Shown here piece after piece: positions 299 through 16,623 of a stretch of 21,803 nt of DNA. Source of the DNA: a virus; the IMG/VR virus record IMGVR_UViG_3300022858_000643, positions 1 to 21,803 of that record; one strand, written 5' to 3'. Under the pieces are notes generated by a model. It ran no database searches. It was not told the DNA's origin and saw only the letters and a program-made list of their open reading frames with translations. Position 1 is the first letter of the stretch. The number at the start of each line of letters is the position of its first letter. Position numbers and translations under genes: made by a program.

Positions 299-712
299 TT
301 ATATTCCTCCAACACTTTCATGAATTTCACCATCAGGTGATACTGATATATAATAATTTAATCTGTGTCCTGGGTATGGACCATTAGATAAGACACATTT
401 ATTTTTTTGTAATGTTTTATTAACTATATATTTTGGTTCTCCTTCTTTATTTCGCCTATTGTGTAATTGTAAATGATATGTACATAGTGTTTTTCCCTTT
501 AAACGTTTTTTATTACATCCACTTGCTTTACAAACTCCAAAACAATGTTTGATATTTTTATCTTGTCTTAATAATTCAACAGAAAGTTGATGCTTATTTT
601 TCTTAACATCTTCTTGAAATGCTTGTAATAGATTGTTTGCATCCCAATGTCTGCCTTGAGCTTTAAGCTCAGTTATTAGGTCAATATTTATTTCTTGTAT
701 TTCGTATTCCAT
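299..712 (-). CDS. small zinc-finger protein of unknown function
   Basis: A 137-residue protein ending in GGAGGAATATAA, which also supplies the ribosome site of the nuclease that follows, so the two are translationally coupled. The middle holds a metal-site cluster: C57, C61, C66, C77, H80 and H84, in a basic context. It resembles the compact Cys/His knots around the cores of phage HNH-like or zinc-binding proteins, but no HNH catalytic pattern is visible. The N-terminal 50 residues are predicted helical, and the C-terminus ends in a short beta-rich stretch. I do not recognise a family. The position just upstream of a PD-(D/E)XK nuclease suggests a nucleic-acid-binding partner, which is inference. 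Confidence 0.75.
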   Translation of the reverse strand: MEYEIQEINIDLITELKAQGRHWDANNLLQAFQEDVKKNKHQLSVELLRQDKNIKHCFGVCKASGCNKKRLKGKTLCTYHLQLHNRRNKEGEPKYIVNKTLQKNKCVLSNGPYPGHRLNYYISVSPDGEIHESVGGI

Positions 713-722
713 TTTGTTAAAA

Positions 723-754
723 GGTCTAGAGTTGGAATCGAACCAACTCTAAAC
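723..754 (-). other. tRNA acceptor/T-arm minihelix-like hairpin
   Basis: On the minus strand a perfect 12-bp helix (724-735 with 743-754, one G-U) closes a seven-base loop TTCGATT, the canonical T-loop sequence. The helix reads as a 7-bp acceptor stem stacked on a 5-bp T stem, with a C at position 73. The D and anticodon arms are missing, because the 5' acceptor strand directly abuts the T stem. Just 5' of it, a second fold is possible: GGTG/CACC (788-791 with 757-760) enclosing CTGAA/TTCAG. I tried to build a full tRNA using an acceptor strand 41 nt further upstream. The acceptor paired at 6 of 7 positions, but no anticodon arm formed. It may be a decayed tRNA or a tRNA-like element. Confidence 0.4.
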
Positions 755-837
755 ATGGTGCCCCCGTCTGAATCTCTTCAGTTTCAACACCAAACATATA
801 TGAGTTTTACGTCACATATACATTTTGTTTTCAAAGC

Positions 838-952
838 TAACCGACAAGCTTCCTTCAGCCAGATTCGAACTGGCATTCATAGTTCGACATACTATGGTGA
901 TACCAAATTACACCATAAAGGTTGGAAGTCTCAGACTTCCGAAGGTCGGTTA
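838..952. repeat. 8-bp inverted repeat bracketing tRNA-Asp
   Basis: TAACCGAC (838-845) and its exact complement GTCGGTTA (945-952) flank the tRNA-Asp gene. In a precursor transcript they would form a stem bringing the leader and trailer together. A further hairpin, GGAAGTC-TCA-GACTTCC (924-940), lies between the right arm and the tRNA 5' end. The pairing is seen directly; a role in tRNA processing is inference. Confidence 0.5.
850..922 (-). tRNA. tRNA-Asp (anticodon GTC)
   Basis: A complete 73-nt cloverleaf reads on the minus strand from 922 to 850. It has T8; D arm GTGT/TCAC (three pairs plus the usual 13-22 mismatch); A14, G18 G19 and A21; anticodon stem ATAGT/ACTAT around the seven-base loop ATGTCGA with T33, anticodon GTC (plus-strand 886-888) and G37; a four-base variable loop; T arm GCCAG-TTCGAAT-CTGGC; and a 15-48 A-T Levitt pair. 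The acceptor ACCTTTA/TGAAGGA pairs at six of seven positions, with an A-A clash at 1-72 and A73 instead of the usual G73 for Asp. It may be slightly degraded, or edited. No intron is needed. An 8-bp inverted repeat lies outside both ends. Confidence 0.8.
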
Positions 953-1010
953 AATAATATTGAAAACAGCTGCACATGGCATTCTTGTTTTTCATGCTGC
1001 TCCAGGGGCA

Positions 1011-1030
1011 TAATTAAAAAAATAAAAAAA
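1011..1030 (-). terminator. T-run terminator of the small leftward operon
   Basis: Immediately after the stop codon of the gene ending at 1031, the minus strand reads two runs of seven T separated by one A. Oligo-T without a strong hairpin is the typical archaeal terminator. It would separate the operon 2180-1031 from the tRNA region. Confidence 0.5.
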
Positions 1031-3374: not shown

Positions 3375-3676
3375 TCTAATTCAAAAAATTCATTGATTTC
3401 TTTATTTACTTCACTAAATATTTCTCTGATATAGTAATCATTCTTTGAAAATGATTTATTTTGTACTTCTTCTAATGGATAACCTTTCTTTGGTTCGCCA
3501 CAGTGTCTGGCTCTTGGACCATTACCTCTAGCAAATTCCATTCCTATAGCACCATGTCTATGTTTTTCACCACAAAAAGGACATGGTTCTATAAATTCTA
3601 AAAGTCTCCATGTTTCTTTATCTCTTTTTACATTTATGATAAGCATTTCATAATCTTTATCAGTTACTGTGTTCAT
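3371..3676 (-). CDS. small phage-type zinc-binding protein (CPFC...H.H...HC)
   Basis: A 101-residue protein with C32-P-F-C35-G-x3-H39-x-H41-G, then R-A-R-H58-C59-G. The CPFCGxxHxHG...HC pattern is widespread in small uncharacterised phage and mobile-element proteins and looks like one compact zinc site. The flanking helices are charged. Start and stop overlap the neighbours by ATGA, directly downstream of the primase-helicase. The biochemical function of this family is not known to me. Confidence 0.75.
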   Translation of the reverse strand: MNTVTDKDYEMLIINVKRDKETWRLLEFIEPCPFCGEKHRHGAIGMEFARGNGPRARHCGEPKKGYPLEEVQNKSFSKNDYYIREIFSEVNKEINEFFELE

Positions 3677-5814
3677 TTCTTTCCCTCAAATATTTTTTTA
3701 TATATTTCATTTTTAAATTTTGTATAATACCATCTTAATTCATAACCCGTTGCTATTCTTTTACGTTCAACAGGTGTGCCATGGTTACCAAGTATCTTTC
3801 TAAAATTCAAATCACTTTCAACTTTCAATTTACTTGTACTAGCTATACAATATTTTCTATAAAAACAATACATATCATCATTGGTTACATATTCATCGCC
3901 GTCGTTTATAAATTCTATACAATCTTGCATAAATGCTATTGCTGATGATTCACGTTTCTGCATCATCATTTTTGTTTCATCGTATGATTTATCATATGAA
4001 AAATCTTCATTCTTTAATATTCTATGTAAACCTTCTAATGCCCAGTTAAGTACACCACTAAGTTCTTCATCTGATGTAAGTTTTTTTGTCATTTTAGTAT
4101 CAGCAAGACGATGATTATCTTCTAATGTATTATTTGCTTTTCTTCTTTCATAATCATTCTTAGGTAAAAATGCTACAGGAAAATCGATATATATCCATCT
4201 TCGCCAAAAGCCATCAGTGTTTTCATCTATATATGGTAATGTATTTACTGCAAATATCATCTTTGCATAATTTTTAAAATGTATAGGCTCTAAAAATTTA
4301 CGTTGTGCTGTGACTAAATCTTCTCCTGTTAATTCTCTAAAGGTTGATGTACTTTTTAATTCTGTTTTACCAAGGTCTGCACCAAGATTAGCAAGTTTCT
4401 TATGTAGTGCAGATTTAATAAATTTGTCTTGTTCAAAGGCATGCAATGAGATGTTTGTTACATTGTTTATACCTATTACACATTTCATCTGGTCGATTGT
4501 TTTTCCTTTGCCATTTCCACCATCGCCAGAGAATAAGATAGCTCTTTGAATATTATAATCTCTATAAAGAAGATAACCATATATTTCTTGCATAAGAATG
4601 ATATCATCATGCTTTAAGATGGTATTGAAGTGCTTCTTTGTTATCTCGCAGGTTGCCTCAGAATTATACGACACAGGAAGTTTACTAAAGAATTTATATT
4701 TTTCTGAGAAAGGTTCAAGAGTGTTTGTTTGTATATTTAAGATGCCGTTTTGAACACATATATATTTTATATCTTCCTCTTGAAAGAAGACATCTATATC
4801 TTCATATGTTTCTTTTCTAATGAAATCAACTATCTTATTAACAATATTTATATCATAATTGCTTTTTAAAATAACACTTACCATTTCTTGTATATATGTT
4901 ATTGCTTGAGGGATATAGATGCCATTACGATATATCCACATCTCAAGAATCTTATCATTACGGATTGAGACGATGATGTTCTCATCCATTATTTTTTTAG
5001 CTATCTCAGGTATGATTTGTTTTCTGGTTTCGCCTACTAAAGCTGGCCGTGTATCAAAAACATATGATTCAGCCTTTTTGAATGTATAATCTTTGTAAGC
5101 TTGCGGCGACTCTTTCCATTTACTAAAGCTTTTCATATGATTGTAGATATAGTCTTTCTTTCTGCCTGAGAACAAAAGCTTAATAATTTCCTTATACTCT
5201 GCAGCACTTCTTGATGTGTCTTTCTTCTTAGGTTCTTCAATATTTTCTACAATATCAGTAAATTCTACAGCATTTTCGTTATAATAAGCATCTACATCAT
5301 ATGATAGATAGCATGCTCTACTTATATCTGTTGTAGATGAATCAATTGATGAGATGTCAATCTCATATTTTTTATGAAGATAGTTGTATATTGTAAATAC
5401 TCTATCTTTGTATTTGCCAACATCTTTAGGGATAGAAAATATAAGTTTAAGACCAGCGCCAGAAGGTGAGATGAACATTAGCTTTATATATGGGTCAACT
5501 TTAAGTTTCTCTTTTAATTCTATGATATTATCAATATAATCTACATCTATAGTAGTATATCCAGACATTTCTATAAGTGCATTGTTTCTTCTTTCTTTAA
5601 ATATACCTGCTGTAGTGATATATGAGAGATGTTTTTTTATCTTATTTCGCTCTTTCTTGAGCTCTTTTATATCATCATTTTTGATATTTTGTATCTTTTC
5701 ACAGATGTTTTTGAACTCTTCTGATACAATTTTGTTAAAAACAAAGAATAAATCGGCTTCTCCATCGGGTATTATTTTAGTAATTCCACCATAAAATATG
5801 CTAAATTTGCTCAT
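3673..5814 (-). CDS. primase-helicase (VirE_N/BT4734-like primase domain plus D5-type SF3 helicase)
   Basis: A 713-residue replication protein. Residues about 60-190 look like the BT4734-like (VirE N-terminal) domain, an archaeo-eukaryotic-primase relative: TTID90-V-D92 is a likely metal-binding pair, followed by the SPSGAGLK loop (116-123) and DISRACYL (163-170). Residues about 350-420 fit a D5 N-terminal region. Residues 426-550 are an SF3 helicase: Walker A GDGGNGKGKT (430-439), a weaker Walker B around ANLGADLGK, sensor-like motif C AKMIFAVNTLP (517-527), then the arginine-bearing DGFWRRWIYIDF. The C-terminus has a winged-helix-like tail. Together these parts would prime and unwind viral DNA. 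The gene starts the leftward operon; the ribosome site is GAGAGGAAATG. Confidence 0.9.
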   Translation of the reverse strand: MSKFSIFYGGITKIIPDGEADLFFVFNKIVSEEFKNICEKIQNIKNDDIKELKKERNKIKKHLSYITTAGIFKERRNNALIEMSGYTTIDVDYIDNIIELKEKLKVDPYIKLMFISPSGAGLKLIFSIPKDVGKYKDRVFTIYNYLHKKYEIDISSIDSSTTDISRACYLSYDVDAYYNENAVEFTDIVENIEEPKKKDTSRSAAEYKEIIKLLFSGRKKDYIYNHMKSFSKWKESPQAYKDYTFKKAESYVFDTRPALVGETRKQIIPEIAKKIMDENIIVSIRNDKILEMWIYRNGIYIPQAITYIQEMVSVILKSNYDINIVNKIVDFIRKETYEDIDVFFQEEDIKYICVQNGILNIQTNTLEPFSEKYKFFSKLPVSYNSEATCEITKKHFNTILKHDDIILMQEIYGYLLYRDYNIQRAILFSGDGGNGKGKTIDQMKCVIGINNVTNISLHAFEQDKFIKSALHKKLANLGADLGKTELKSTSTFRELTGEDLVTAQRKFLEPIHFKNYAKMIFAVNTLPYIDENTDGFWRRWIYIDFPVAFLPKNDYERRKANNTLEDNHRLADTKMTKKLTSDEELSGVLNWALEGLHRILKNEDFSYDKSYDETKMMMQKRESSAIAFMQDCIEFINDGDEYVTNDDMYCFYRKYCIASTSKLKVESDLNFRKILGNHGTPVERKRIATGYELRWYYTKFKNEIYKKIFEGKK

Positions 5815-9906: not shown

Positions 9907-9919
9907 AAATTTAAATACC
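9907..9919 (+). promoter_or_regulatory. archaeal TATA box for the S-layer-like gene
   Basis: AAATTTAAATACC would start transcription near 9943. That leaves a leader of about 50 bases, with a small GGCA-TTTT-TGCC hairpin and a GGTGA ribosome site before ATG 9992. Confidence 0.6.
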
Positions 9920-9991: not shown

Positions 9992-11557
9992 ATGAGCATG
10001 AAAAAGATACTCACGACTGCAGCGTGTGTGTTAATTCTAGTTCTAACTTTATTCTGTGTGGGATGTAATCCTAAGTATACAGATGAATCGGTTAGTACTT
10101 TAATTAATGATAACGTTGCGGAAGTAGTAGCAGAAAATGATGTTGTAGTTGCCAACCTGAATACTAATATAGCGGACCTTAATGGTAAGCTTGAAGATGC
10201 AGGAACATCTCTTGAAGACGCACAGGCAATAGCAACACAAGCAATAGCTGATTTAGAATCAGCTAAGGACACAGAGATAGATACCTTAAATAGCAAGTTA
10301 TCTGAACTGGAGGCTGCACTTTTAGCAATAGAAGATGAGGCTAAAGCAACTGAAGCGAAGTTGGAATTAGAATACACCAAGGATGAACTTAATTTAGATA
10401 ATGCATATAACTATGTGATATCTGATAGAGACTTAAAAAGTTTGTTTGATGGTGAGATAGATTTCGACGATGACGACTATGACGCAGAAGAAGTTATTGA
10501 GGCAACAGCAACCGTTACAATAAACGAAGCAGATTATGAAGATAATGTATACATGACCCTTGCAGAAGGCGATATATCTTACAGATTAATCTTTGAGAAT
10601 GACCTTGATACAAGCAAGATTGACCTTGACGAAACTCTTGAATTTAGTTTTTTAGGAGAAACAGTTGAAGTAATCGATTGGGACAATGATAAAATAACCT
10701 TTTTCAAAGGCACAGAATATCTTATCTACGAAGGCGAGACAATCGTTGTTGATGATAAGACTGTAACAGTTGAAGCAATAGGTGAAGAAAAAATCTTTGT
10801 TAAAGTTACTTGCGATGGCGTTTCAGAAAGTTCAATGATTGAGCAAGACGAGACAGATGAACTTTGCGACATAGAAATCAGAGCAAAAGACGTTTTCAGC
10901 GATGAAGACATTACAGATTTTGTTACTATAGAGATTGGTAACGATGTCAATAATGAAGTTGAAGACGGTGATGAATACGAAGAAGATTCAATTTGGGAAT
11001 GGTCAATAGATGCAAATTCAATAGGCTTAGTATTAGCTGAAGATTTTGATGAAGTTGATGAAGACGAAGATTACCAAGCTATAACAGCAGGTGATTCAGT
11101 ATGTCTACCAAATGATTATGTTTGTGTAAGATTTGATGGTGTATCAGAAGAAGATTCAGAGGATTATTTCTTTGAGGAAGACAACGATTATGCAATTGAA
11201 TTAACAGGCGAAATCATAAGCGGATTGAATGATTACGATAGAGTATTCATTGATGGTACAGGTTTTTACGACGAAGACGATGACCTTATAGATGCAGCTT
11301 CAGTAACATTAGGCGATAGTGGATTAGTTCTTAATATTGTAGGCAGTGGATTAACTGTTGGTGATATAAAGATTAATGCAGCATTATCTGATGTTGAGGT
11401 AGACGGTGTTTCAATAGCAAACGAGGATGATAACTTCATCACAGCGTATGGTATTGTAATCGAAAACCCTGAAGACAGTCTTGAGGACAACGAAGTAAGT
11501 CTGATAGTACCAGAAGAAGCTTTGGAAGCAAGTATAACTTTTGTTGGATTGGCATAA
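9992..11557 (+). CDS. secreted acidic S-layer-like surface protein with coiled-coil stalk
   Basis: A 521-residue exported protein. Residues 1-25 are a signal peptide (MSMKKI, a long hydrophobic core, ending FCVGC25); the cysteine could be a lipid anchor, though the lipobox is imperfect. Residues about 28-135 form a heptad-like coiled coil with alanine and leucine (NLNTNIADLNGKL...). Residues 150-521 are beta-rich and extremely acidic. They contain segments such as LEFSFLGETVEVIDWDNDKITF and the closing EDNEVSLIVPEEALEASITF. These are strikingly like the repeated modules and C-terminal end of S-layer-type proteins of DPANN archaea. It has its own promoter and a long T-run after the stop. Codon use (many GAC, GAA and GCA) differs from neighbours, suggesting acquisition from a host. 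Role in surface remodelling or attachment is inference. Confidence 0.7.
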   Translation: MSMKKILTTAACVLILVLTLFCVGCNPKYTDESVSTLINDNVAEVVAENDVVVANLNTNIADLNGKLEDAGTSLEDAQAIATQAIADLESAKDTEIDTLNSKLSELEAALLAIEDEAKATEAKLELEYTKDELNLDNAYNYVISDRDLKSLFDGEIDFDDDDYDAEEVIEATATVTINEADYEDNVYMTLAEGDISYRLIFENDLDTSKIDLDETLEFSFLGETVEVIDWDNDKITFFKGTEYLIYEGETIVVDDKTVTVEAIGEEKIFVKVTCDGVSESSMIEQDETDELCDIEIRAKDVFSDEDITDFVTIEIGNDVNNEVEDGDEYEEDSIWEWSIDANSIGLVLAEDFDEVDEDEDYQAITAGDSVCLPNDYVCVRFDGVSEEDSEDYFFEEDNDYAIELTGEIISGLNDYDRVFIDGTGFYDEDDDLIDAASVTLGDSGLVLNIVGSGLTVGDIKINAALSDVEVDGVSIANEDDNFITAYGIVIENPEDSLEDNEVSLIVPEEALEASITFVGLA

Positions 11558-11594
11558 GCTTTTCCTTTTTTTATTTTTTTTAATTTTTATTATA
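11558..11594 (+). terminator. T-rich terminator after the S-layer-like gene
   Basis: Successive runs of 7, 8 and 5 T follow the stop codon with no strong hairpin, the typical archaeal terminator type. Confidence 0.55.
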
Positions 11595-11599
11595 CAGCT

Positions 11600-11675
11600 A
11601 TAATGAGGCCAGGACACAGGTTCGATTCCTGTCGGCTCCTAGAGCTGTAGTGTAGTGGTTATCATCTGGCCGCGC
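11600..11675 (+). tRNA. circularly permuted tRNA-like gene (3' half before 5' half)
   Basis: The parts of a tRNA occur here in the order 3' half, then 5' half. The 3' half has: anticodon 3' strand GGCCA (11607-11611), variable loop GGAC, T arm ACAGG-TTCGATT-CCTGT (11616-11632), acceptor 3' strand CGGCTCC (11633-11639) and T73. The 5' half follows without spacer: acceptor 5' strand AGAGCTG (11641-11647), T8 A9, D arm GTGT...TCAT with A14, G18 G19 and A21, C26, and anticodon 5' strand TGGCC (11667-11671). The acceptor pairs at 6 of 7 positions (A-C clash at 1-72). The anticodon stem pairs 5 of 5, plus 26-44. The G15-C48 Levitt pair is present. The break falls in the anticodon loop, so the anticodon is unresolved. 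ATAATGA before GGCCA would supply T33 and G37, but no convincing bulge-helix-bulge is visible. A functional tRNA is unproven; the permuted arrangement is direct observation. Confidence 0.65.
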
Positions 11676-12119: not shown

Positions 12120-13373
12120 ATGGAAGTAGAATATAGAGGATGTGTGTTAAATCAAGACAAGCTATTTCAGAGAATAGGCTATCAACCACATCCTACACAA
12201 AAAGTTATACATGATTCTAATGCAAGATTTAAATTTCTTGCTTGTGGCAGAAGATGGGGTAAGAGCCTAGGAGCTGCGCATGAAATAATTAAAGCTGCTA
12301 TGGTTCCAAACCAGATGTTATGGGTTGTTGCTCCTACATATGAACTGTCTAAAAAAGTCTTCAGAGAAATCTATAAGGTTTTTACAAGAAAGTTTCCATA
12401 TTGGATAGAGACTAAAAGCGAATCTAGGTTGCATATTAAACTTCTTAATGGCACTGAGATTGTAGGCAAATCAGCAGATAATCCAGATTCTTTGATAGGA
12501 GAAGGTGTTACTGGTATGGTCATTGATGAAGCTGCTCGTATTAAGAAATCAGTATGGGAAGAATGTCTTAGACCTACATTATCTGATAAACTTGGTTGGT
12601 GCATAGCGATTTCAACACCACGTGGTAGGAATTGGTTCTTTGAAGGATATTTAAGAGGACAAGACCCTTTAGTAAAGAATTATGCATCATGGTCATTCAA
12701 ATCTATTGATAATCCATATTTCCCTGACGAAGAGGAAGAAGAGGCAAGAAGAACAACAACACAACGTGCATTTGAACAGGAATATCTAGCAAAATTCCTT
12801 ACAGATGCAGGTGGAGTCTTTAGAGGTGTAAGAAAATGTATTAAAGAAGAGTTTAGAGACACCGAGGGCTCACTTAGGTATGTTATAGGCGTGGATTTAG
12901 CAAAATATACGGATTACACAGTCATAATAGTTATTGACCTTAGAGATAACCAGGTTGTGTTCTTTGATAGGTTTAATCAGATAGATTGGAGTTTACAGAA
13001 GAAACGTATCATAGAAGTAGCTAGAACTTATAACAATGCACAAATTGAGATTGATGCTACTGGTATTGGTGATGCTATCTTAGAAGACCTTAGAGCAGAA
13101 GGACTTAATATTGCTGGCCATGTATTTAATAATAAGAGCAAAAACGACCTTATTGATAATCTTTCAATCATGATAGAAAAGCAAGAAGTTCATTATCCTG
13201 ATATACCAGATTTAATAAATGAACTGCAGATATATGAATATGAAATAACAAAAGCTGGTAATACAAAACTGAATGCTCCAGAGGGATATCATGACGATTG
13301 TGTTATTGCATTGGCTCTTGCTTGTTCTAATCTTGCTAGTTTTAAAACCAATACTAGCTTCGCAATAGCATAA
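12120..13373 (+). CDS. terL: terminase large subunit (ATPase plus nuclease)
   Basis: A 417-residue DNA-packaging motor protein. ATPase motifs: Walker A CGRRWGKS (42-49), Walker B GMVIDEAA (132-139), and the coupling motif AISTPRGRN (163-171). RNase H-like nuclease domain: GVDLAKYTDYTV (257-268) with the first metal-binding aspartate, IDATGIGD (311-318) with the second, and GYHDDCVIALALA (389-401) with the third. The length is normal for the Terminase_6 type. No ribosome site is visible before ATG 12120; the start directly follows a hairpin and T-run, so regulation through that structure is possible. The small-subunit candidate is far upstream at 6807. Confidence 0.95.
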   Translation: MEVEYRGCVLNQDKLFQRIGYQPHPTQKVIHDSNARFKFLACGRRWGKSLGAAHEIIKAAMVPNQMLWVVAPTYELSKKVFREIYKVFTRKFPYWIETKSESRLHIKLLNGTEIVGKSADNPDSLIGEGVTGMVIDEAARIKKSVWEECLRPTLSDKLGWCIAISTPRGRNWFFEGYLRGQDPLVKNYASWSFKSIDNPYFPDEEEEEARRTTTQRAFEQEYLAKFLTDAGGVFRGVRKCIKEEFRDTEGSLRYVIGVDLAKYTDYTVIIVIDLRDNQVVFFDRFNQIDWSLQKKRIIEVARTYNNAQIEIDATGIGDAILEDLRAEGLNIAGHVFNNKSKNDLIDNLSIMIEKQEVHYPDIPDLINELQIYEYEITKAGNTKLNAPEGYHDDCVIALALACSNLASFKTNTSFAIA

Positions 13374-13443: not shown

Positions 13444-16400
13444 ATGAGAATTCCATTCACCGAAAAGTTAGATAATTCAATCAGTATAGGAATTGGCGGA
13501 GTGCCAACTAATTATAAAGAGGCATCTAAAGGTAAGGTTCCAAAGAATACTGTAAAATTTCCTTCTGAGTTAGGCGAAGCACATTTATTTGATTTAGCTA
13601 TTGCCGATGATTTGTATAAGAATTTCGGTTTAGTTACAGCAGTAATCGATAAATATGTAGATTTTATCATAGGTCCTGGTCATTTTATTAAAATTGATGA
13701 GAATGATGAATTAGCAAAAAAGGCTAAAGTTATTCTAGATGATTGGGAGAATGATATTGGAGCTGATAGTTTGTTAAGAGCATGGACTAAAGAAGCTCTT
13801 AAAAAAGGTCAAGGTTATATGGAAATTGCTGGCATAGGCGGTGGCATAGAACGTGCAAAGATTCTTGATGCAAAGTATATGTATAAAAAGATTAATGACG
13901 AAGGCGAAGTTGAAGAATATAATCAATATGCAGGAGCTTTTGACAAAATAGATAAAACTAAGATTATTCCAATTGAACCAGAAGATATTGCAGAGATTTC
14001 TTTTAATAAGACAGGCAATGATGCATATGGCATAGGTATTATATATCCAACAGTAAAAATAATTGATAGTTTTTTAGGAAACAGAAAAGAACGTGATATA
14101 TTGCTTAAACGAAAAGCTAATTCTCCATATCATGTTAAATTAGGTAATGCTGAGAAAAGGATATTACCAAAAGATTCAGATGTAGAAGCATTTGGACAAA
14201 AATTAGAATGGCTTAATAATAAGCATGAATGGGTAACAGGACCCGATGTTGAAATAAAATCAATAGATTTTGGTAATCTTGGCGATAAATTTAATGCGTC
14301 AATAGAAAGTGATGAAGAGCTTTTATTCTATTCATATCAAGTTCCAGCAGTCTTAATGGGTAAGGGCAGTATTCCTGAAGGATTGGCTAAGGTTCAATTA
14401 AGAGCTTTCCAAATGAGAATAAACAGTTTCCAGGAAGAGATAAAAAAGGTTATGGAAACTCAAATATATAAAAGGATTCTTGAATCTCATGGATTTTCAG
14501 CTAAAGTAGAAGTTGTTTGGGGAATGCCAGATGATAGTGAGACTAACGACAGGATAGACAGGATAAAAGAAATAATGAAATCTCCTACAATTTCTATGAC
14601 TGCTGCTGAGATGTTAGAAGCAGAAACTATGAAGTTATTAGAAATTGATATGGATGAATATAATAAAAGATTAGATGAAGAGAAAAAGAAAGATGAAGAA
14701 GAACGAAAAAAGATAGAAGCTCAAATGAATCAAATTGAAACAGAGGATGAGGAAGAAAAACTTAATCCTGAACGTGAGAAAGAAGAAACTGCGTCATTAC
14801 CGAAAGTTCCAGGAGAAGAACGAGAACATTTGCATGAAGCATGTGATTTTAGTATATGTAATGAAGGAGCAGATTTTGATAAAGATTATAGTTTAAAAGA
14901 ATGGTTAGGATTTGATTATCAATCTTTAAAAGATAATATAAAAAATGTTATTTCTACAGATAGATTTAAATTTTTACGAGCAATAACTAAGCAAGACCAG
15001 ATGTTAGGATTGTTACGGGAAACCCAGATTAATAAACTTAGAGGAGTTCTACATGAAGCGTTTGATAAAGGAAAAAGTGTAAGATGGATAGAAGGTCAGA
15101 TTAAGAATAAGGTTAAACCAGGAAGCAGATACAGAATAGCAAATAATGGTAAGGTAGTTAAATCTGTTAGTGATAGATTACGACCGATATTGATAGCAAG
15201 GACAGAAACAACGAGGGTGGCATCAGAAGGAACTCTTAATAGTTATAAAGAGAAAGATGTAGAAAAAGTAAGATGGTTATCAAGTGGTGGTGAGAGAACA
15301 TGTCCTGAGTGTGATGATATGAATGGTCAGATTATGACTTTAGATGAAGCAAGTGGTATGATACCATTACATGCAATGTGCAGATGTTTTATTGATTTCC
15401 AAACACCTGTTTATACAAGCAAAGGATGGGAACAAATAGGAAAAATAAAAAAAGGAGATTTAGTATTAACTCATAGAGGAAAATTTAAATTAGTAACAGA
15501 TATAATGCCAAGAATAAGATATCACGATAAAATAATTTCAATAGAAACAGAAAAATATAATATGGTAAAAGGTGCAAAAAGGAAAGGTATAAAATTATCT
15601 ACTACTCCAGAGCATTCACATTATATACAAGGGAAAGGATGGGTAAGAGCAGATAAGATTGAAATAGGTGATAATTTGGTTGTTCTTGGAAAGAAATGTA
15701 TTGAATGTGGAAATTTATTTCCTCATATGGTTCATTATGAAAATAGTAATTTTTGTTCAAGTAAGTGTGCAAATAGATATACAGCAAATATTCAATTTAA
15801 AGATAAATATCAGCATGAAATAAGAAGTATTAAAGCTACTCAACAAATGCAACGAGAATATGCTGATGGAACAAGAGATAGGTTTGAAATTGTAAAAAAA
15901 GCACAAGAAAAAAGTAAAGAATTATGGGATGAAGGTATTCATCCATTGATAGATTGGCATAAAAGTAATGATATTTGGAATAAAGGTAAAACTAAATATG
16001 ATAATGAAAGTTTAGCTAAATTATCAAATGATAGAATTGGTAAAGGAAATCCTATGCATAAATCAAAGCATGATAAAGAATATTGGGAAAAAGTTTCACA
16101 AAGACAAAAACAATATTGGAGAGAGAATCCAGAGAAACATCCTAATCGAAAAATGCCAAATGTATCAATTCCTCAACGTAAGATGTTTGAACATTTAAAA
16201 TTATATTATCCAGATGCTGAATTAGAATATTCTGTAAAAACTAATAAATCTGTTAGATTTATAGATGTTGCAATACCATCATTAAAGATAGGATGTGAAT
16301 ATGATGGTGAATATTGGCATAAAAATAGAGAAAAAGAAGATTTGCAACGAGATAAAGAATTAGCAGAAGTAGGATGGACTATATTACATTTCAATAAAAA

Positions 16401-16623
16401 AAATATTGAAAACAATTTAAAAGAATTTTGTTTAGTTGAAAAAAATCATACAAATCAATATGAGTTTATGACAATGAAAATTAAAAAAACAAATGAATGG
16501 TATCCAAAAAGAGGAAAAACATTATATAATTTTAGTGTAGCAGATGATGAAAGTTATATTGTAAAAGGCGCGGTTACTCATAATTGCACGTGGACACCAA
16601 TTACAGAGTTGAGTAAACTATGA
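13444..16623 (+). CDS. portal-MuF fusion protein interrupted by an intein
   Basis: A 1059-residue precursor. Residues 1 to about 400 are a phage portal: LYKNFGLVTAVIDKYVDFIIG at 57-77, QVPAVLMG at 299-306, and helical stem and crown segments. Residues 405-450 are an acidic/lysine coiled linker with DEEEE patches. Residues about 500-660 plus the C-terminus are the MuF/SPP1 gp7-like head-morphogenesis domain: LIARTETTRVASEG (583-596), WLSSGGERTCPECDDMNG (611-628), and PLHAMCRC. After removal of the intein (648-1047) the motif reads HAMCR-CTWTP, the usual H-x-x-C-R-C ending of MuF. The spliced protein would have 659 residues. It forms the portal ring and helps DNA entry and head assembly. Fusion of the two proteins is known in some phages. 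Confidence 0.9.
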   Translation: MRIPFTEKLDNSISIGIGGVPTNYKEASKGKVPKNTVKFPSELGEAHLFDLAIADDLYKNFGLVTAVIDKYVDFIIGPGHFIKIDENDELAKKAKVILDDWENDIGADSLLRAWTKEALKKGQGYMEIAGIGGGIERAKILDAKYMYKKINDEGEVEEYNQYAGAFDKIDKTKIIPIEPEDIAEISFNKTGNDAYGIGIIYPTVKIIDSFLGNRKERDILLKRKANSPYHVKLGNAEKRILPKDSDVEAFGQKLEWLNNKHEWVTGPDVEIKSIDFGNLGDKFNASIESDEELLFYSYQVPAVLMGKGSIPEGLAKVQLRAFQMRINSFQEEIKKVMETQIYKRILESHGFSAKVEVVWGMPDDSETNDRIDRIKEIMKSPTISMTAAEMLEAETMKLLEIDMDEYNKRLDEEKKKDEEERKKIEAQMNQIETEDEEEKLNPEREKEETASLPKVPGEEREHLHEACDFSICNEGADFDKDYSLKEWLGFDYQSLKDNIKNVISTDRFKFLRAITKQDQMLGLLRETQINKLRGVLHEAFDKGKSVRWIEGQIKNKVKPGSRYRIANNGKVVKSVSDRLRPILIARTETTRVASEGTLNSYKEKDVEKVRWLSSGGERTCPECDDMNGQIMTLDEASGMIPLHAMCRCFIDFQTPVYTSKGWEQIGKIKKGDLVLTHRGKFKLVTDIMPRIRYHDKIISIETEKYNMVKGAKRKGIKLSTTPEHSHYIQGKGWVRADKIEIGDNLVVLGKKCIECGNLFPHMVHYENSNFCSSKCANRYTANIQFKDKYQHEIRSIKATQQMQREYADGTRDRFEIVKKAQEKSKELWDEGIHPLIDWHKSNDIWNKGKTKYDNESLAKLSNDRIGKGNPMHKSKHDKEYWEKVSQRQKQYWRENPEKHPNRKMPNVSIPQRKMFEHLKLYYPDAELEYSVKTNKSVRFIDVAIPSLKIGCEYDGEYWHKNREKEDLQRDKELAEVGWTILHFNKKNIENNLKEFCLVEKNHTNQYEFMTMKIKKTNEWYPKRGKTLYNFSVADDESYIVKGAVTHNCTWTPITELSKL
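15385..16584 (+). mobile_element. intein with zinc finger, NUMOD-like region and Vsr/DUF559-type nuclease
   Basis: A 400-residue intein from C648 to N1047 of the precursor. Block A: C-F-I-D-F-Q-T-P-V-Y-T-S-K-G, then the GDLVLTHRGK strand. Block B: TPEH at 721-724. Blocks F/G: YNFSVADDESYIVKGAVTHN, then the +1 residue C1048. All splicing residues (Cys1, TxxH, penultimate His, terminal Asn, +1 Cys) are present, so it should splice. The insert holds a four-cysteine finger (C752, C755, C771, C775) and a NUMOD3-like stretch (GKGNPMHKSKHDKEYWEKVS). A nuclease domain at about 905-990 reads IDVAIPSLKIGCEYDGEYWH...RDKELAEVGWTILHF, the DUF559/Vsr-like PD-(D/E)XK pattern, not LAGLIDADG. The codons are more A/T-rich than those around it, in keeping with recent transfer. 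Confidence 0.93.

Follow-up and report, generated by a model that had tools for sequence, protein, structure and literature searches.

Why would a tailed virus encode a secreted protein built around part of an archaeal S-layer, and what would such a protein do for it? Little is settled about how viruses handle the archaeal S-layer, and knowledge of the viruses that infect DPANN archaea is scant. The question arises from a single IMG/VR virus record of 21,803 bases, referred to here in its full length as the window. One open reading frame of this record (ORF 9992-11557), with a block of small genes on one side and the terminase gene on the other, had been singled out in an earlier note as a secreted protein resembling DPANN S-layer proteins, and as a possible means of remodelling or masking the host envelope or of blocking superinfection. 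The reading frame is real; it encodes 521 amino acids on the plus strand and is 100% identical in three more IMG/VR contigs. The window also carries PHROG hallmark proteins, and the features that bear on the argument are collected in Table 1.

Table 1. Features of the window, with positions counted from its first base
Feature	Position	Strand	Basis or remark
D5-type primase	3673-5814	minus	
TATA-like TTTAAATA, possible archaeal promoter (weak)	9910-9917	+	upstream of ORF 9992-11557
S-layer-module protein ORF (P0001), 521 aa	9992-11557	+	identical in L002, L003, L004
N-terminal secretion/anchor segment to Cys25, near-lipobox F-C-V-G-C	9992-10066	+	sequence, hydrophobic segment
Predicted helical stalk, residues 32-132	10085-10387	+	AlphaFold2 helices
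S-layer central module, residues ~131-517	10382-11542	+	homology to DPANN S-layer proteins, fold
Small beta domain within module, residues ~239-318	10706-10945	+	model residues 115-194
T-rich stretch, possible archaeal terminator	11558-11593	+	27 T in 36 nt
Permuted tRNA-like element	11607-11671	+	directly behind ORF 9992-11557
Terminase	12120-13373		in window
Portal fused to Mu-F-like domain	13444-16623		interrupted by intein-like region with DUF559 or REase-like insert

A module homologous to the core of DPANN S-layer proteins

The likeness to DPANN S-layer proteins turned out to be full-length homology of the region following the stalk to the central module of these proteins, an identity that we hold with high confidence. 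The profile search of DPANN genomes suggested in the earlier note returned many strong matches, in proteins that also bear the S-layer domain PF05124. With a profile made from five viral sequences, matches were found in 75 of 371 genomes from the phylum of a Woesearchaeota genome, while a profile of ten modules (A9) matched in 111 of 351 genomes from that phylum and in 39 of 96 from the phylum of an Aenigmatarchaeota genome; the same profile found nothing in 146 genomes of a Micrarchaeota phylum and a single, marginal match in 200 of a Bathyarchaeota phylum. Because shuffled cellular sequences never matched the profile (0/380), the relationship extends over the whole module and is more than a common acidity or a common ending. 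By BLASTP, the window module matched every one of 46 cellular modules, at E values from 9e-29 (26% over 466 columns) to 1e-4. Ordinary virion proteins, the outcome that would have spoken against the idea, did not appear: no family in Pfam, PHROG or NCBIfam, virion families included, matched the protein at a meaningful score, and nothing useful emerged from 50,697 phage records or from PDB sequences.

One of the module matches, in genome G001, sits amid core cellular genes such as those for ribosomal proteins (names assigned by eye). In a smaller survey a strong match was found in one of 35 archaeal genomes and four other Woese- or Pacearchaeota genomes were without one; thus the family is patchy. 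An early scan with a four-sequence alignment gave 591 pattern stretches and no relative, a result overturned by the later profile searches.

The remaining anatomy proposed for the protein is largely upheld. For the N-terminus, claimed to be a signal peptide with a possible lipid anchor, a hydrophobic segment does run up to F-C-V-G-C25, but the lipobox is a near miss, with Cys at -3. AlphaFold2 predicts the stalk as helices at residues 32-69 and 74-132, at the modest confidence of a poor whole-protein model (mean pLDDT 51.7). The body was foreseen as acidic and made of beta structure, and the fold of ten aligned modules is accordingly predicted to be all-beta (mean pLDDT 89.5, pTM 0.75), with D+E at 30%. 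The V-P-E-E-A-L-E ending recurs in relatives, and the small beta domain within the module also occurs alone in other DPANN proteins (lone matches, profile columns ~112-186).

Comparison of the predicted fold with known structures is supportive of an S-layer identity, though not decisive. Foldseek gave no match at E <= 0.001 in PDB or BFVD, and a re-check of its list left 3u2h and 3u2g as the only high-rank matches spanning the full model; both are solved structures of the DUF1608 domain (PF07752) from the S-layer of Methanosarcina acetivorans. VIA-align scored 3u2h at Z 9.8 over 211 residues (rmsd 6.2) and 3u2g at Z 9.3 over 224 residues (rmsd 7.9), values that a match of 77 residues equals to within 1. 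The viral proteins have no Pfam match to PF07752, and hhalign against PF07752 domains was weak (probability 30%, 99 columns). Matches to envelope proteins of alphaviruses, flaviviruses and bunyaviruses, nearly all of which cover only model residues 115-194, were discounted as reflecting a widespread beta arrangement; the same likeness to envelope proteins has been reported for the Methanosarcina S-layer, according to a passage of the review PMC5744192.

Codon usage and a promoter of its own, two further marks attributed to the gene, contribute little to the S-layer identity. Synonymous codon use does differ from that of the rest of the window (z -4.4), but it is no distinguishing mark, because other genes deviate too (ORF 2333-2959 at z -5.5, the portal gene at z +5.3), and codon bias was dropped as a sign of recent transfer. 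Similarly, the TATA-like site is present but belongs to a class of sites found 17 times in the window against 10.4 expected. Ahead of the ATG stands GGTGA, which resembles a ribosome-binding site of archaeal type. The long T-run described after the stop codon is unusual, as only 3 of 21767 overlapping plus-strand windows are as rich in T.

The permuted tRNA-like element behind the gene has its T-arm/acceptor half followed immediately by its acceptor/D-arm half. It scores 28.7 bits with the Rfam YrlA (Y RNA-like) model, below the cut-off of 69, and is called a tRNA by ARAGORN once the halves are reordered normally and the loop is typed in. Two of the identical contigs, L002 and L004, also have the element, its folding energy is ordinary (z -0.47), and the same pattern did not find it in the loci of the ten other viral lineages. 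Elsewhere in the window (700-1020, minus strand), a T-arm-like motif at about position 744, downstream of a tRNA-Asp (850-922), is not part of a called tRNA and perhaps belongs to another structured RNA. Several miRNA-family matches on both strands of L006:10308-10511 most likely reflect one long inverted repeat.

Viral and cellular forms of the module

The module is kept in all eleven viral proteins of the family. Ten distinct IMG/VR lineages came from scans of viral contigs, namely the window with its three identical contigs, L005, L006, L007, L016, L176, L177, L178, L189 and L190. The eleventh, L139, is a virus contig of 31.7 kb that is binned in the archaeal genome G268 and carries terminase, tape-measure-like and connector-like genes, all except the terminase named by eye. 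A PHROG scan of ten proteins from viral and related loci, which took in eight viral lineages besides the window as well as an integrated element in genome G141, placed 10/10 in virus families. PHROG hallmark proteins are accordingly found in eight of the ten other viral lineages, L006 and L007 lying outside the scan.

In L016, as in the window, the S-layer-module gene lies upstream of the terminase gene, and in both of these as well as in L139, L189, L190, L005, L177 and L178 it adjoins packaging, connector or tail genes. In L139, L189 and L190 it belongs to a structural cluster, with a secreted fibre-like gene on one side and a connector-like gene on the other, and in L006 and L176 it is near glycosyltransferase genes (named by eye). 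Tail or structural clusters of L005, L178, L189, L169 and L170 also encode large secreted-looking or TM-anchored proteins, some longer than 1000 aa, hinting that several proteins of these viruses act on the host surface.

The cellular and viral proteins differ in what surrounds the module. Of 17 full-size cellular proteins, 16 pass the cut-off for PF05124 (S_layer_C, 'S-layer like family, outer domain'), 8/8 in one set and 8/9 in another. The PF05124 match usually opens ahead of the module and closes behind it, so that the module lies within this domain. Among the matches listed (25 of 30 families), PF05124 is found in none of the eleven viral proteins at E up to 1; thus the window protein is an S-layer-module protein and not a full S-layer protein. 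A full module is present in 44 of 56 distinct cellular ORFs, with median flanks of ~115 residues before and 132 after, and the C-terminal flank contains VGG[PS] in 35 of these 44 versus none of the eleven viral proteins. The chain of the eight N-anchored viral proteins stops 0-4 aa past the module, with anchor and stalk preceding it. A canonical lipobox (pattern PS00013) occurs in four of eleven viral proteins (L006, L016, L176 and L177) versus none of the 56 cellular ORFs, although L177 has no hydrophobic segment by the hydropathy cut-off. Three others (L005, L007 and L178) have a TM-like N-terminal anchor, and the window protein its near-lipobox. The L139, L189 and L190 proteins begin with a signal-like segment and continue beyond the module into a Pro- or Cys-rich linker and then a C-terminal TM-like helix. 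Mean D+E is 27% in the viral proteins versus 16-18% in the cellular ones.

An anchored layout is not uniquely viral, for a cellular protein from the Aenigmatarchaeota phylum (L260:8146-9993, G619:C24) combines a TM anchor with a Thr-rich linker and a partial module and lacks PF05124, and cells too can therefore make such a form. The 491-aa NAN_L224, considered as a protein of viral type, rather resembles a broken S-layer ORF.

For the tree, 57 rows were used, comprising the 11 viral ones and 46 of the 56 cellular ones after ten partial cellular rows had been dropped; its midpoint root serves for drawing only, and VIR_L178 is a long branch. The viral rows fit one clade with one change needed (support 87/61, 86% of bootstrap trees), and a core of eight is supported at 100/99. 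Judged from these sequences, the module was probably captured once, long ago, and has been re-anchored since. Repeated recent captures are not favoured by the tree, with the reservation that eight viral rows have an unusual amino-acid make-up, so that attraction by composition is possible.

Kinship with S-layer proteins, together with the bin of the L139 contig, points to a DPANN host, and the module offers a sequence marker tying uncultivated tailed viruses to such hosts. Remote relatives of the window terminase occur in 3 of 351 and 1 of 96 DPANN genomes, one of them in G141, near primase-like and integrase-like genes (named by eye). Beside this integrated-element terminase, L257:10864-11742 (G141:C25) encodes a secreted-looking protein of 293 aa with two copies of the small beta domain. 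Archaeal-type 16S stretches on contigs titled Campylobacteraceae and Gammaproteobacteria (L050, L079) suggest mixed bins.

Possible roles of an anchored S-layer core

Any account of the protein has to accommodate what computation found, that is, a module homologous to that of S-layer proteins, a lost outer domain, anchor-type segments, a family spread across viruses, and a neighbourhood of packaging or tail genes. The account preferred here is that a tailed virus cut the central module out of its outer domain and set it on a membrane anchor and stalk. The protein would be exported and fixed in the host membrane through a lipid or a helix, standing beneath the host S-layer or inside it, where the module may dock with or replace host subunits on the infected cell while presenting no outer domain. 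The receptor face or the lattice would thereby change, and the adsorption or injection of other viruses, or of sister virions, might suffer. Because tailed virions, to our knowledge, lack a membrane, the infected-cell surface is the simplest place for an anchored and secreted S-layer core, and the suggestion that the envelope is remodelled or masked, or superinfection blocked, fits the predicted anchored and surface-facing anatomy. Several findings weigh against a surface mimic, namely the non-canonical lipobox of the window protein, the similar layout of the cellular Aenigmatarchaeota protein, the position of the gene directly ahead of the terminase gene in the window and L016, and its structural-cluster position in L139, L189 and L190, with which exclusion and a late or virion role agree equally well. 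Taken as a whole, the statement that an anchored host S-layer core acts from the infected-cell surface as a mimic, for exclusion or masking, earns from us a little less than even confidence. More speculative is its extension to a clade of DPANN tailed viruses that captured the host S-layer core once and re-anchored it repeatedly, by lipid or by N- or C-terminal helix, with copies that assemble together with the host lattice and thereby recast the infected cell's surface; this we put forward as a tentative conjecture.

Loss of the outer domain could also serve egress, if a late anchored module were to become a capped subunit of the host lattice, weaken the S-layer and free virions from a cell without peptidoglycan. 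The missing outer domain (0/11 viral proteins among the matches listed) and the three relatives within a structural gene cluster would suit such a factor, and S-layer-degrading enzymes of archaeal viruses are unknown according to part of the review PMC4456609, but the lattice-forming part may not be the module alone, and the window gene, with its own T-rich end, lies outside any clear lysis cassette; on balance a role in egress seems unlikely. Similarly improbable is a place in the virion, with the S-layer fold decorating the particle or acting as a spike that binds the host, and with the hydrophobic N-terminus functioning as a signal or assembly segment. The neighbours of the gene in the window and seven other lineages, which are packaging, connector or tail genes, speak for it, as does the hydrophobic start of other large tail-cluster proteins of these viruses, yet a tailed virion has, as far as we know, no membrane to receive the four proteins of the eleven with a canonical lipobox or the three with a C-terminal TM-like helix, and no PHROG structural family matches.

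The protein might instead benefit the host, as a moron that mends or changes the cell surface, for example where a DPANN cell attaches to its archaeal partner. There is a TM-anchored cellular relative that lacks PF05124, and every cultivated DPANN archaeon needs contact with an archaeal partner, as a passage of PMC11291902 states; nevertheless, at least 11 diverged viral lineages keep the gene while its anchors change, which suggests that the virus itself makes use of it and leaves a moron as a poor candidate. Finally, homologues are common enough in DPANN genomes to raise the question of whether the contigs are host DNA miscalled as viral and the protein a cellular S-layer paralogue, but terminase, portal and other hallmark genes lie on the same contigs and the viral rows group apart from the cellular ones on the tree, so that this explanation is scarcely credible. 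A viral S-layer core without its outer domain offers a tool for telling the receptor part of an S-layer from its lattice part.

Comparison with known systems

No report of a virus-encoded S-layer protein was found in the open-licence PMC literature, as partially covered by titles and the beginnings of abstracts. The closest known proteins are the DPANN S-layer proteins with PF05124, which share with the viral ones the same all-beta central module in order and at full length, predicted secretion and the host group. The viral proteins differ in lacking the outer-domain halves and ending at the module, in bearing a lipid or TM anchor with a stalk, and in being more acidic. For the DUF1608 (PF07752) proteins of Methanosarcina, the likeness is that 3u2h and 3u2g are the best whole-model structural matches, and the differences are the missing Pfam match, the weak profile-profile comparison and an rmsd of 6-8. 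The major Methanosarcina S-layer proteins, as described in part of PMC3361143, consist of a signal peptide, tandem DUF1608 domains, a linker and a C-terminal TM segment, a layout resembling that of the C-anchored viral subclass.

With respect to function, the nearest parallel may be found among exclusion proteins, which, according to a section of PMC3952083, often sit outside the membrane by means of a helix or a lipid anchor, some with an N-terminal TM segment, and among which Ltp of phage TP-J34 combines a lipid anchor, a spacer and an active domain. Like Ltp, the viral S-layer-module protein is virus-encoded and has a predicted tripartite structure of anchor, spacer and outer domain; unlike it, exclusion by the S-layer-module protein is a proposal, and the active domain of Ltp is an unrelated repeat domain, in a system of bacterial hosts. 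We rate the virus-encoded, surface-anchored protein as a known kind, and the use of a host S-layer core as its business end as what is new here.
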